Below the pieces are notes generated by a model, which searched no databases, was not told the origin of the DNA, and saw nothing but the letters and a program-made list of their open reading frames with translations. A program made the position numbers and the translations under genes. This document shows, one piece after another, positions 1 to 4,431 of a stretch of DNA of 28,551 nucleotides. The stretch covers positions 1 to 28,551 of the forward strand of contig QZKU01000111.1 in assembly GCA_003598085.1 (NCBI GenBank), given 5' to 3'. Source of the stretch: Candidatus Abyssobacteria bacterium SURF_5 (GTDB lineage Bacteria; Abyssobacteria; SURF-5). The first letter of the stretch is position 1. Each line of letters opens with the position of its first letter.

Positions 1-381
1 CTACATTTCGACTTCCGGAAAATCGAACCCCCAAAAAATAAGGGGTTTTTGCAGATTTTTGACCAAACCCAAGCCCAAAGTGTCCAAAATGAGTTAGACA
101 TATCACGGTACCTTGTAAGCAAGCGACCTCGAGTTCCTGATGGCACACTCTACTATTCGCCTTCTGCAACCGTTGATGTTTACGAGCTCTTGCGTCAGTT
201 TATTGATGGCACGGATGAAGTTGATGGACTTTTAGTTGTTGTCATTGCCCCCATAGAGTTTATGAATGATGAACGAAGGGGCCTTAACAGATATTTAGCT
301 CTGAAGCTTCGGATTTCGAATGAAGTTCAAGACCAGCAAATGCAGAATCCTCTGGCGGCCCTAAATCGTCTTTCAATATAA
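1..381 (+). CDS. C-terminal fragment of a BREX-type (DUF2791/BrxD-like) ATPase
   Basis: The frame is open from the first base of the window to a TAA at 379-381, so the start lies upstream and at least 126 residues of the C-terminus are visible. A TTG at 49 is in frame but there is no reason to treat it as the start. The visible part has a hydrophobic strand (GLLVVVIAPIEF) followed by a charged segment DERRGLNRYLALKLRI. From memory this resembles the end of BREX-system ATP-binding (DUF2791, BrxD-like) proteins. Walker motifs would lie outside the window. The next ATPase gene starts 34 bases downstream with its own ribosome binding site, so the two are probably co-transcribed and may be paralogous. 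The family call is an inference from a short C-terminal stretch. That this is a real partial gene in the operon is fairly sure. Confidence 0.6.
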   Translation, partial: LHFDFRKIEPPKNKGFLQIFDQTQAQSVQNELDISRYLVSKRPRVPDGTLYYSPSATVDVYELLRQFIDGTDEVDGLLVVVIAPIEFMNDERRGLNRYLALKLRISNEVQDQQMQNPLAALNRLSI

Positions 382-415
382 TCTTGCTGCGCAAATGTAT
401 ATGGGAGGCGCTTGA

Positions 416-1666
416 ATGGAAGCACAAAGACAACAAGCTAGAAGAGCAATTGAGGCTTTGCGTTCGGGTGTACCCAATAGGGATGCAGTTTCAGTACTCG
501 AATGCGGCCAAAATAGGTTAGAACAACTTTTTAGAAGGAATTTAGAGGCGACACGAGAGGTGAGTTCCGATGGGCTTTACCCCAAGGGCCTACTCGTAAG
601 TGGCAGATTTGGAACAGGGAAATCTCATCTGCTTGAATATTTTCAACACATAGCTCTCGAAGAAAATTTTATCTGCAGCAAAATAGTGATAAGTAAAGAG
701 ACTCCTTTATATGATCCGGTAAAACTTTTCAGGGCTGCAGCAGATACAGCCATGATTCAAGGAAGACGCGGATCAGCTATCGCTGAAGTTGGTGAGGCGT
801 TAAATATAAGCAGCAAAGCATACTTTGAGCTCTGCGAATGGGCAAATACATCTACTGAAATCAGTCCGTTCTTCTCAGCCACCATTTTCCTACTCTCTAG
901 GCTTAATCAAGATCCAGAGCGCCGAGATCGTATATTTCGTTTCTGGGCTGGGGAAAAACTCGGAGTAGCGGAATTAAGAAGGTATTTAAGAGAATGTGGA
1001 GAAGCAGTGAGTTTTAAAATCGATCAAGTGAAATTGCGAGACCTTGCGTTGCAGCGTTTCAAGTTCGTTCCCCGACTGATGCAGGCGGCCGGCTATTCTG
1101 GATGGGTTCTTCTGATAGATGAGGTGGAACTGATTGGATGTTACTCCTTTAGACAACGTGCTAAATCTTATGCTGAACTAGCTCGATGGCGAGGAGATTT
1201 ACGGGGGGAAAAATATCCCGGATTAACAACAGTGCTTGCCATTACTGCTGATTTTCAAACCGCGATTTTATTAGATAAAGGAGATCTTGAAAATGTGCCT
1301 GGAAAGCTGAGGGCTATGGCGCTTTCTGATACTTGGATTCAGATCGCGGAACAGGCAGAGAAGGGTATGCACTCTATTCAGCAAAGCGTTCAACTGGATG
1401 AGCCGAACGAAGAAACTCGTAAGCAGATATTTAATGACGTTCGAGAAATTTATTCAAAGGCCTATGACTGGCAGCCTCCTTCAACTTCAACCTTCTCGCG
1501 CTTTGCCACTACTAGCACAAGAATGCGCGAATACATCAGAGGTTGGATAACCGAATGGGACTTGAAGCGACTTTATCCAACCTACCAATCAAAAATAGAA
1601 GTTAAGGAAATACCGACCAATTATATTGAAGACGAGGATCTTCAGCCGAAAGAGGAAACAGATTAG
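416..1666 (+). CDS. BrxD-like / DUF2791 P-loop ATPase of a BREX-related module
   Basis: This 416-residue protein has a clear Walker A motif GRFGTGKS at residues 63-70 and a Walker B motif LLIDEVE with the acidic pair at about 235-236. The N-terminal arrangement (REAxx-type helix, 'ECGQNRLEQLFRRNLE', then SGRFGTGKSHLLEYF) is what I recognise from the DUF2791 family. That family includes BrxD of type 2 BREX systems and related defence ATPases. Its role is probably ATP-dependent assembly or signalling on DNA for a nuclease/helicase partner; this is inferred. A GGGAGG ribosome binding site at 403-408 sits seven bases before the ATG. The gene is followed after 14 bases by the 188-aa gene and then the SNF2-nuclease gene. 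Base composition is AT-richer than the metabolic genes from 4585 on, which suggests horizontal acquisition. Confidence 0.75.
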   Translation: MEAQRQQARRAIEALRSGVPNRDAVSVLECGQNRLEQLFRRNLEATREVSSDGLYPKGLLVSGRFGTGKSHLLEYFQHIALEENFICSKIVISKETPLYDPVKLFRAAADTAMIQGRRGSAIAEVGEALNISSKAYFELCEWANTSTEISPFFSATIFLLSRLNQDPERRDRIFRFWAGEKLGVAELRRYLRECGEAVSFKIDQVKLRDLALQRFKFVPRLMQAAGYSGWVLLIDEVELIGCYSFRQRAKSYAELARWRGDLRGEKYPGLTTVLAITADFQTAILLDKGDLENVPGKLRAMALSDTWIQIAEQAEKGMHSIQQSVQLDEPNEETRKQIFNDVREIYSKAYDWQPPSTSTFSRFATTSTRMREYIRGWITEWDLKRLYPTYQSKIEVKEIPTNYIEDEDLQPKEETD

Positions 1667-1680
1667 CGACAGGAGTTATG

Positions 1681-2247
1681 ATGTCTGTTCCATTTAAAGA
1701 TGCCGACGAACTAATAGAATTGGGCACTGCCGGATTTTTGAAGATAGAATGTACAGAAGAGGGAAAAGGATTTCTGGGTGCTTTTTTTATAGTAAACGCA
1801 AAAGGAGAACCTGTTGAGTTCACATATAACAGAATTGATACTCCTAATATCTTCTTATGGCGCAAAGATGACATTCGGAGGCACGCATCAAAAAAACTCG
1901 CTACCTCCCTTTTTGCTCTCTGTAAGGACACACCAAGACTGATTCTCTGCCTCGCTCAGGAAATTGATTCGGAGGTCTTTTCGCAAGATTTGCAACTATC
2001 AATCCCTGTATGTCGCCTTGCCCCAGCCATTGAAGCTGTAGAATTTTCTGACGCAGAGGTAAGAGATTCTGTCGAAGCACATGATATGCAAAATGCTTTT
2101 TGGTCTCCGGATAAACCCAATGAAGAGTCAATCGAACATCGCCTTTTCGCTGCCTTAGTCAGCCGCGGCTTATTGCTTGAACCTTTCTCCAGAGCATCCA
2201 TTGGACTAAGAGAAGTTTTCGCAAAACAACCAACGAATGCAGGGTAA
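1681..2247 (+). CDS. unrecognised 188-aa protein of the BREX-like module
   Basis: I do not recognise this protein. Two ATG codons stand in tandem at 1678 and 1681. The AGGAG at 1671-1675 is only two bases from the first but five from the second, so 1681 is preferred. It has no predicted membrane segment or signal peptide. The N-terminal half is beta-rich (for example 'GFLGAFFIVNAKGEPVEFTYNRI') and is followed by helical segments such as 'RRHASKKLATSLFALCKDTPRLILC'. The C-terminal third has an acidic helix and 'EHRLFAALVSRGLLLEPFSRA'. The next gene begins at the base after its stop codon, so translation is probably coupled to the helicase. Its position between ATPase and helicase-nuclease suggests an adaptor or DNA-recognition subunit; this is inferred from context only. 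Confidence 0.7.
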   Translation: MSVPFKDADELIELGTAGFLKIECTEEGKGFLGAFFIVNAKGEPVEFTYNRIDTPNIFLWRKDDIRRHASKKLATSLFALCKDTPRLILCLAQEIDSEVFSQDLQLSIPVCRLAPAIEAVEFSDAEVRDSVEAHDMQNAFWSPDKPNEESIEHRLFAALVSRGLLLEPFSRASIGLREVFAKQPTNAG

Positions 2248-4431
2248 ATGCCGCTTCTCTGGAAAGAGACGAATCAGGACGATATCCCCAAAGGACGTTT
2301 TCTCCTCTTCTTTAAGCGTTCGATATCATTTCGCCAGAAGTTTGCAAAGCGTTTGAGCATTCCTCAACCAAGGGAACATCAGGTCGGCAATTTTGTCTTC
2401 AATATTAAATCCAGCCCTCTTTCCATTGAGGAATTCTCTCTCGTAGGCTCTGCATCAAGTATCGCGACTTGCTTGTACCCTAGCGACTGCGCAACCGTGC
2501 GGATTGCCCAACTTGCGGATGAAATAACGCCCACAAGAAGAGATTCTCCCAACCAGAGGAAGTGTTTTGAAAGTCATTCCTCGAATGCCGCGCCCTCGTT
2601 AGGTGAAGATATTCCCCTTGCGAAGCGATTGGCTTATCTCTTACAACCCTCCGTATCAATTCTGGCTTCGAATGCAGGCCCGCTGGAATGGCCTGCGACA
2701 TTGTATGATTTTCAGATAGAAGGAATCTCTGCCCTGCTTTCCCATGAGGCGCTCTTGTTGGCAGATGACATGGGGATCGGGAAGACCATTCAAGCTGCCG
2801 GCGCTCTCCGAATTCTATTTTATCGAAAACAAATTGATGCCGGATTAATCATTACGAGGGCCGGTCTAATTAAACAGTGGCGGGAAGAGTTAAGACGATG
2901 GGCTCCTGAGTTGAGAGTTTCAACAGTTCGGGGACCAGTAGAGGAACGTGTTTGGCAGTGGCGCAATCCGGCGCATCTGTATTTGGTAGGATACGAAACG
3001 TTGAGAGCAGACTTCACGGAAAACCCAAATTCAGTTCCACGGCGCCCTTGGGACGTTGTTGTTATTGACGAAGCCCAAGCCATCAAGAATCGAGAGACTG
3101 AGATCAGCAGGAAATGCAAGCGACTACTACGTCGCCGCGCATGGGCTCTGACAGGCACTCCTTTAGAGAATAAAGAAGACGATCTTGCATCCATCTTGGA
3201 ATTCCTTTGTCCTCTCGGGAAGGATGAACCGCCTAAAAAGGTATTTCCGGGTCCTGCTCTCTTTGAGAGGCAAAAGAGGCTCCAACTTCGCCGAAAGAAA
3301 GTTGATGTTCTCCCTCAATTGCCTCCTAAGCTCATCAGCCGAATAAATGTCGAACTTGAGGGTTCGCAACGCGAGCAATATGAAAAAGCAGAAAGGGAAG
3401 GTGTCGTAAGGCTTAAGGAAAAGGGAGAAGCTGTCAGAATAGAAAATGTGCTGGAACTTATCATGCGTTTGAAACAGATTTGCAACTTCAGCTCACTGAC
3501 GGGGCTCTCAGCTAAACTTGATGATATTAAAGAAAGACTGGATGTAATAATTCCGGAAGGATATCGCGCGCTTATATTCTCCCAATTCACGGACCAGGAA
3601 TACGGAGTGAGAAAAATTGCGTCATCTCTCTCAGAATTTCACCCCCTCATATATACAGGCGACCTCTCGGTTCTGCAAAGAGAGGAAATGATCAGGCGAT
3701 TCAAGGAAGATCAAATCAACAAGGTCTTTATCCTCTCGCTACGCGCAGGGGGCCAAGGATTGAATTTACAGCAGGCTAGTTATGTGTTCCATTTTGATCG
3801 TTGGTGGAATCCAGCAGTGGAGAATCAGGCCGAAGATCGCAGTCATCGTTTAGGGCAAGAGTTTCCGGTTACGGTTTATAAATATACTTGTTTGAACACA
3901 ATCGAAGAGAGAATTGATCAGATTCTCCAAGAAAAACAGGCACTGTTTAACCAGATGGTCGATGATGTTTCGATGGATTTGCGACAAAATCTTACGGAGC
4001 ATGAACTCTTCGGCCTGTTTGGACTTACGCCACCTGTGTCCCTAAAGAAGGTTAAGAAGGAAAGTCATTTGGTTCGTGGTTTTGATCATATGGGCGGCAT
4101 CGAATTCGAGCAATATGTCCAAGGACTTCTCCAACGTAAAGGATGGCGCGTTGATACAACTCCAGTGACGAGCGACGGAGGAATAGACCTTATTGCGAGT
4201 CGGATCGACGAACTTGGAGTGGAAACACGACTTCTGATCCAATGCAAGAATCACAGTCGGCCAGTAGGGGTAGATGTGATACGTGAGTTAAATGGAGCTT
4301 TGCCCTCCAATTTGATGGGCGAACGAGGTGTTGTGGTTTGCCCATCGGGCTTCACTGCTGAGGCAGTGTCATTCGCAAAAAACCGCGGTATTCTGCTATG
4401 GGATAGGCATCACCTTTTCAACATGGTTTGA
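2248..4431 (+). CDS. SNF2-family helicase fused to a C-terminal Mrr-like nuclease domain
   Basis: This 727-residue protein has an accessory N-terminus of about 150 residues and then a complete SNF2/SF2 motor. Motif I is DDMGIGKT near residues 171-178, motif II is DEAQ at 274-277, motif III region LTGTPLEN is at 301-308, and motif VI NQAEDRSHRLGQ is at 526-537. The last ~110 residues form an Mrr_cat/PD-(D/E)xK nuclease: 'GGIEFEQYVQGLLQRKGW', then D643-GGID647 and the Q665-C-K667 core. The expected activity is ATP-driven movement on duplex DNA coupled to cleavage. Helicase-Mrr fusions occur in phage defence (for example ZorD of Zorya), but the neighbours here are DUF2791 ATPases, not Zor proteins. 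The ATG follows the previous stop directly, with an AGGG-type ribosome binding site inside the upstream gene. Catalytic residues of both domains look intact. Confidence 0.88.
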   Translation: MPLLWKETNQDDIPKGRFLLFFKRSISFRQKFAKRLSIPQPREHQVGNFVFNIKSSPLSIEEFSLVGSASSIATCLYPSDCATVRIAQLADEITPTRRDSPNQRKCFESHSSNAAPSLGEDIPLAKRLAYLLQPSVSILASNAGPLEWPATLYDFQIEGISALLSHEALLLADDMGIGKTIQAAGALRILFYRKQIDAGLIITRAGLIKQWREELRRWAPELRVSTVRGPVEERVWQWRNPAHLYLVGYETLRADFTENPNSVPRRPWDVVVIDEAQAIKNRETEISRKCKRLLRRRAWALTGTPLENKEDDLASILEFLCPLGKDEPPKKVFPGPALFERQKRLQLRRKKVDVLPQLPPKLISRINVELEGSQREQYEKAEREGVVRLKEKGEAVRIENVLELIMRLKQICNFSSLTGLSAKLDDIKERLDVIIPEGYRALIFSQFTDQEYGVRKIASSLSEFHPLIYTGDLSVLQREEMIRRFKEDQINKVFILSLRAGGQGLNLQQASYVFHFDRWWNPAVENQAEDRSHRLGQEFPVTVYKYTCLNTIEERIDQILQEKQALFNQMVDDVSMDLRQNLTEHELFGLFGLTPPVSLKKVKKESHLVRGFDHMGGIEFEQYVQGLLQRKGWRVDTTPVTSDGGIDLIASRIDELGVETRLLIQCKNHSRPVGVDVIRELNGALPSNLMGERGVVVCPSGFTAEAVSFAKNRGILLWDRHHLFNMV

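Follow-up and report, generated by a model that had tools for sequence, protein, structure and literature searches.

The left end of contig C111 of Candidatus Abyssobacteria bacterium SURF_5 encodes BrxD-like ATPases and a helicase-nuclease fusion protein, which raises the question whether these genes are the visible part of a BREX-type defence operon continuing beyond the contig edge or a system of their own. The window analysed here is this whole contig of 28,551 nucleotides, one of 145 contigs in the assembly.

Gene layout and the interruption of gene A

Four tightly spaced open reading frames lie on the forward strand, as stated in the original prediction: the first (1-381) is open to the left and is followed by genes B, C, and D (Table 1), and the coordinates confirm gaps of 34, 14, and 0 bases. 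The second gap is 14 bases when counted from a start of gene C at 1681 and 11 bases from 1678; the family alignment favours 1681 (188 aa) over 1678 (189 aa). Together they form the right-hand portion of an operon of five genes, F1-A-B-C-D, the left portion of which ends contig C12 of the same genome. The contig edge had been suspected to hide PglZ or a methyltransferase; instead, the sequence found there holds the fifth gene, F1, together with the missing 5' portion of A. Upstream of F1, the translations on C12 read as metallo-beta-lactamase-like, TrkH-like, and TrkA-like proteins, response regulators, and a histidine kinase, and the genes downstream of the operon in the window appear metabolic by their translations.

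The first frame had been described as a truncated BrxD-like C-terminus. It does match the BrxC_BrxD domain, but nucleotides 1-93 are the end of an insertion element and only 94-381 belong to gene A, which is a Walker-less paralogue (see below). The 93 bases occur in seven copies in the genome, all of them at contig ends, the opposite end of the element occurs in ten copies, and the terminal inverted repeats of the two ends match imperfectly. The sequence TTAGA is common to both junctions (94-98 in the window and near the end of C12), and joining the C12 and C111 flanks yields an A protein of 318 aa that is 49-55% identical over its full length to most relatives, the best alignments being mostly gap-free. 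The shared TTAGA, the inverted repeats, and the restoration of A by the joined flanks thus indicate that an insertion element lies within gene A. The link between the two contigs is inferred, since the assembly is fragmented; sequence, frame, and duplication all agree on it. The operon copy in the source genome is broken.

Interpretation of the first frame as an ordinary truncation was ruled out, as its first 31 codons are element sequence. The element is present in high copy number and breaks the assembly, with ten left ends and seven right ends found. Ends are located at window positions 1-93 and on contigs C12, C19, C20, C23, C39, C42, C50, C54, C57, C78, C81, C101, C106, C122, C135, and C144 of the source genome (G000).

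Table 1. Features of the interrupted operon and of the Nitrospirales variant (window coordinates unless a locus is given)
Feature	Location	Strand	Remarks
Insertion-element end interrupting gene A	1..93		imperfect terminal inverted repeat CTCATTTTsGACAsTTTG; 7 identical copies at contig ends
Target-site duplication TTAGA	94..98		recurs near end of C12, beside the element's other end
Gene A, 3' part	94..381	+	degenerate BrxD-like (ORC/Cdc6-type) paralogue; PF10923; joined flanks give 318 aa
Gene A, 5' part	L051:9352-10025 (G000:C12)		found with profile built from relatives
Gene F1, 266 aa	L051:8555-9355 (G000:C12)		found with profile built from relatives
Gene B, BrxD-like AAA+ ATPase, 416 aa	416..1666	+	PF10923, 81.3 bits; intact Walker A and Walker B
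Gene C, 188 aa	1681..2247	+	predicted RNase H-like fold (EndoV/UvrC/PIWI group); no sequence family
Gene D, SNF2-family translocase with C-terminal Mrr nuclease domain, 727 aa	2248..4431	+	
Mrr_cat domain of D	4084..4425	+	E619, D647, Q665-x-K667 conserved
Nitrospirales variant	L019:8035-16382		similar in L020, L023, L025, L029, L030

Protein families encoded by the operon

Two BrxD-like ATPases had been predicted, and both A and B match PF10923 above the curated cut-off, with 27.9 bits for A (first frame) and 81.3 bits for B (second frame); in fact they form an active/degenerate pair. B is a complete DUF2791-like ATPase, as proposed, with a Walker A motif GxFGxGKSHLL (at about window positions 602-625) and a Walker B motif DE (at about 1109-1123) that are kept in every relative aligned. 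At the corresponding positions A has GGAAVKF and LDI(S/T)R and, judged from these motifs, is therefore a degenerate, Walker-less paralogue of B. Both proteins are fused in locus L034 and in Nitrospirales. The pairing of an active with a degenerate ORC/Cdc6 protein has precedent in other operons, as noted in a paper on Dnd-linked systems (PMC10853773).

Gene D encodes a protein with SNF2-rel_dom (140.5 bits), Helicase_C (64.2 bits), and Mrr_cat (PF04471, 93.6 bits) domains, the helicase core spanning about residues 150-580. The SNF2 motifs including the Walker motifs are kept in all copies, and the Mrr residues listed in Table 1 are conserved in 11 of 11 nuclease-bearing sequences (the window and 10 relatives). 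The SNF2-Mrr fusion had been taken for the effector of the system; its domains were all matched, but the nuclease is optional among relatives. When copies cut by contig ends are left out, Mrr is present in 12 copies (the window and 11 relatives, L018 via a frameshifted D) and absent from seven (L007, L009, L015, L016, L032, L033, L034).

The 188-aa protein C was rightly called unrecognised in the sense that it has no match in PADLOC, Pfam, or NCBIfam, but it is predicted to adopt an RNase H-like fold. Its model has a mean pLDDT of 77, a level at which two of five models agree, and is closest to Endonuclease V (Z 10.6, rmsd 3.9 over 149 residues), followed by UvrC and PIWI domains. The likeness to Endonuclease V, the UvrC C-terminal domain, and PIWI is confined to this predicted fold, whereas profile similarity is missing and the Asp of the first strand seems to be absent. 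This usual strand-1 Asp seems replaced by Lys, Arg, Thr, or Ala, as read from the sequence and predicted strands rather than from coordinates; invariant acidic residues include E44, E47, D65, E95, E99, and D104. The profile of C had no match among PDB sequences. Membership of C in the Endonuclease V family by sequence was rejected, as there is no Pfam match and the hhalign probability is below 1%.

F1 has no match to known families in Pfam and PADLOC. In its model (pLDDT 86), a long helical hairpin is combined with an alpha/beta region, and the secondary structure predicted for the C-terminal part would possibly fit a winged helix. A fold search of the PDB gave no match with E <0.001 and Z values near 10 for the helical hairpin only, and the F1 profile matched only designed helical proteins among PDB sequences.

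Recurrence and genomic neighbourhoods

The gene order recurs in unrelated genomes. One scan returned 36 loci, of which 21 carry the F1-A-B-(C)-D operon whole or in large part; their genomes are labelled Thermodesulfobacteriota, Myxococcota, Bacillota, Chloroflexota, Nitrospirota, and others. All five genes are found in 18 of the 21, some broken by a contig end or frameshift, while C is missing from L033 and L034, and in L005 C is truncated and D is absent. The genes are mostly tightly packed with frequent overlaps of 1-4 bases, which supports the original view of a compact methylase-free module of BrxD-type ATPases and an SNF2-Mrr protein. Copies labelled Nitrospirota (L008) and Bacillota (L006) are 79% identical in F1 and 82% in A, and the F1 tree has 12 phylum changes versus a minimum of seven, a count that is supportive only because the labels come from metagenome titles. 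Within the order of Syntrophus, F1 occurs in eight of 149 genomes, one of them holding a remnant with stop codons (G081:C6:28815-29176; L067, L068), a case of loss elsewhere. Gene C was found in one of 60 genomes of the relatives set, the window's own, and is absent from the two other members of that genome's family. Genome G064 (L024, L039) carries two operon copies, and in L039 one ends about 3 kb before the next.

F1 was not found in the viral_contigs or plasmid collections; B was not found in the phage collection, and the plasmid collection returned only a remote annotated BrxD. No exact match to a named system exists in PADLOC, Pfam, NCBIfam, or the literature covered, which leaves out most subscription papers and bioRxiv preprints and in which this gene set was not found; the passages considered from the 2026 BREX survey (PMC12839542) do not describe it either. 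Thus, the operon is real, widely recurring, and unnamed in the libraries and papers searched.

A PADLOC scan of 144 proteins encoded next to the operon loci detected Types I and II restriction enzymes, a methylase, AbiE, JetD, and others. In total, 138 PADLOC families passed 1e-15, many being redundant models of the same protein and all being pooled over loci. The same scan of 74 neighbours of Nitrospirales-type loci, a smaller and less diverse control set, returned one family. In L037 (1430-5646), genes for an HsdR-like protein and a YgjP-like metallopeptidase lie directly upstream of F1, and homologues of both precede F1 in the contig-cut L010 (1-1409); L004 has a Type II restriction enzyme as neighbour. 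In L009 (L009:3-16340), genes for DUF499, a DUF1156 methylase, and a PLD-helicase end a few bases upstream of F1, and a DpdF match lies downstream, so that two defence-type modules adjoin. PADLOC gave no strong defence matches for the neighbours of L007, L011, L016, L021, L024, L032, L033, and L034. The association with defence genes is therefore real but partial, being found beside some of the 21 loci only.

A variant in Nitrospirales consists of F1 and two A-B fusion proteins in tandem (758 and 774 aa), followed by a histidine kinase and a response regulator, and lacks C and D. F1 was found in 29 of 196 genomes of this order. D was absent from all six variant genomes tested, where the best D matches scored 264-284 bits inside far longer SNF2 proteins, compared with 1083-1400 bits for true D. 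The conserved chromosomal setting of the variant near the two regulatory genes suggests that the F1/A/B core has a cellular role. It is mainly for this variant that defence is not treated as settled, and a non-defence role is possible.

Proposed function and competing explanations

On balance, the locus is rather likely to be a mobile five-gene operon directed against invaders, in which A and B load D onto DNA. This reading is based on the conserved compact order with frequently overlapping genes in many phyla, on the near-alike copies in L008 and L006 and the mixing of phyla in the F1 tree, and on the sporadic presence in the order of Syntrophus, with one copy decayed. It is further supported by restriction enzymes and the L009 system as neighbours, compared with the single PADLOC family at the Nitrospirales variant, by the retention of the Walker motifs of B and D and of the Mrr catalytic motif throughout, and by the loader role proposed for BrxD in Type-2 BREX (PMC12839542). 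Counted against it are the several loci without defence neighbours, the chromosomal setting of the Nitrospirales variant, the lack of copies in the phage, plasmid, and viral collections searched, and the broken copy in the source genome.

ORC/Cdc6-type ATPases assemble on DNA. Similarly, the active AAA+ protein B and the degenerate A may form a complex that assembles on DNA. The DNA would be chosen by F1, with its coiled coil and possible winged helix, and by C as a putative RNase H-like protein that binds or cuts nucleic acids. A and B would then load or activate the SNF2 translocase D, which would track along the DNA and cut it where the Mrr domain is present; a D protein without Mrr would act by translocation alone or together with a nuclease encoded elsewhere. 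Since the operon contains no methylase, it presumably tells self from non-self without methylation of its own, and the target may be recognised by a DNA structure, a modification, or an invasion intermediate. By such steps the operon would act against phages.

More tentatively, the operon could be a separate, undescribed defence system with a heteromeric loader made of the active/degenerate BrxD pair and a swappable output (SNF2, SNF2-Mrr, or none). In such a system, F1 would be a recognition protein of a new kind, C would act as a nuclease or sensor with an RNase H fold, likewise new, and the F1/A/B core would have been co-opted for a cellular role in Nitrospirales.

A role in DNA repair or genome maintenance, with the AAA+ pair loading an SNF2 remodeller at sites of DNA damage and C serving as a repair factor of the EndoV/UvrC type, is rather doubtful. 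Such a role would be in keeping with the predicted fold of C, whose closest counterparts are Endonuclease V and the endonuclease domain of UvrC, and with the conserved setting of the Nitrospirales variant. Sporadic presence, near-identical cross-phylum copies, decay, interruption, and neighbouring restriction systems, however, are found more typically with defence, and the optional Mrr domain is restriction-like.

The features tested set the operon apart from BREX, Shango, Zorya, and DUF499 BR systems, and a divergent form of one of these, Type-2 BREX included, is improbable. Such an origin would be in line with the PADLOC scores of B for BrxD (64 bits) and, weaker, for SngB (35 bits), and of D for ZorD (236 bits) and DpdE (228 bits), both reached via the helicase core. 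However, B reaches 67.2 bits against the BrxD equivalog NF033438 with its cut-off of 350, D reaches 144.3 bits against the ZorD equivalog with its cut-off of 1500, and neither F1 nor C has a match among the components of the named systems. The term BREX-related, as originally applied, holds for the BrxC/BrxD superfamily domain in A and B and for nothing else. PglZ (PF08665) has no match in the genome, which is 98% complete, and none upstream on C12; no PglZ, methylase, or BrxC adjoins the operon, and no BrxX/PglX-type methylase was found in the upstream or downstream translations or in the conserved operon of relatives. A BREX operon hidden to the left was ruled out by the content of C12 and the absence of PglZ.

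In Type-2 BREX (Pgl), BrxD and an SF2 helicase (BrxHI) form a tightly linked dyad with BrxD as the proposed loader (PMC12839542). The operon shares the BrxD-type AAA+ protein with a partner helicase but lacks PglZ, PglX, PglW, and BrxC, and its helicase is of the SNF2 family. Shango consists of a TerB-like protein, an ATPase, and a DEAD/DEAH helicase and has no methylase (PMC10250203). It resembles the operon in its methylase-free combination of an ATPase with an SF2 helicase, whereas the operon has no TerB, encodes an SNF2 protein with or without Mrr, paired active and degenerate ATPases, and the additional F1 and C. F1 and C have no match to TerB/SngA in Pfam or PADLOC, and SngC is not among the best 25 PADLOC matches. 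Type I Zorya likewise has an SNF2 helicase with an Mrr-like nuclease, ZorD, and the C-terminus of D carries the conserved PD-(D/E)xK-type motif, but ZorA/ZorB (the MotAB-like pair) do not recur in the conserved operon and are not evident in the translations of the window or C12. DUF499 BR systems combine an ATPase with an SNF2 helicase that is sometimes nuclease-fused (PMC12839542), but have DUF499 and an N6-methylase where the operon has a BrxD-type pair without DUF499 matches and no methylase. No Lhr-type helicase is found in the conserved operon. In its presumed way of working, the operon would come closest to the ATPase-helicase pair of Shango and to the dyads of BrxD and helicase in Type-2 BREX, with a motor of the SNF2 family.

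That D alone acts as a Type IV-like restriction enzyme with the other genes as passengers is highly improbable, as F1, A, B, and D co-occur tightly spaced across phyla even without Mrr, although motor and nuclease motifs are both intact in the fusion.

In both BREX and Shango, ATPases of the BrxD type are repeatedly found next to SF2 helicases, where their role is uncharacterised. With a methylase-free operon composed of just a BrxD pair, an SNF2 motor, and two small proteins, the proposal that such ATPases load helicases could be tested directly. F1 and C also represent two protein families that Pfam and PADLOC do not recognise.
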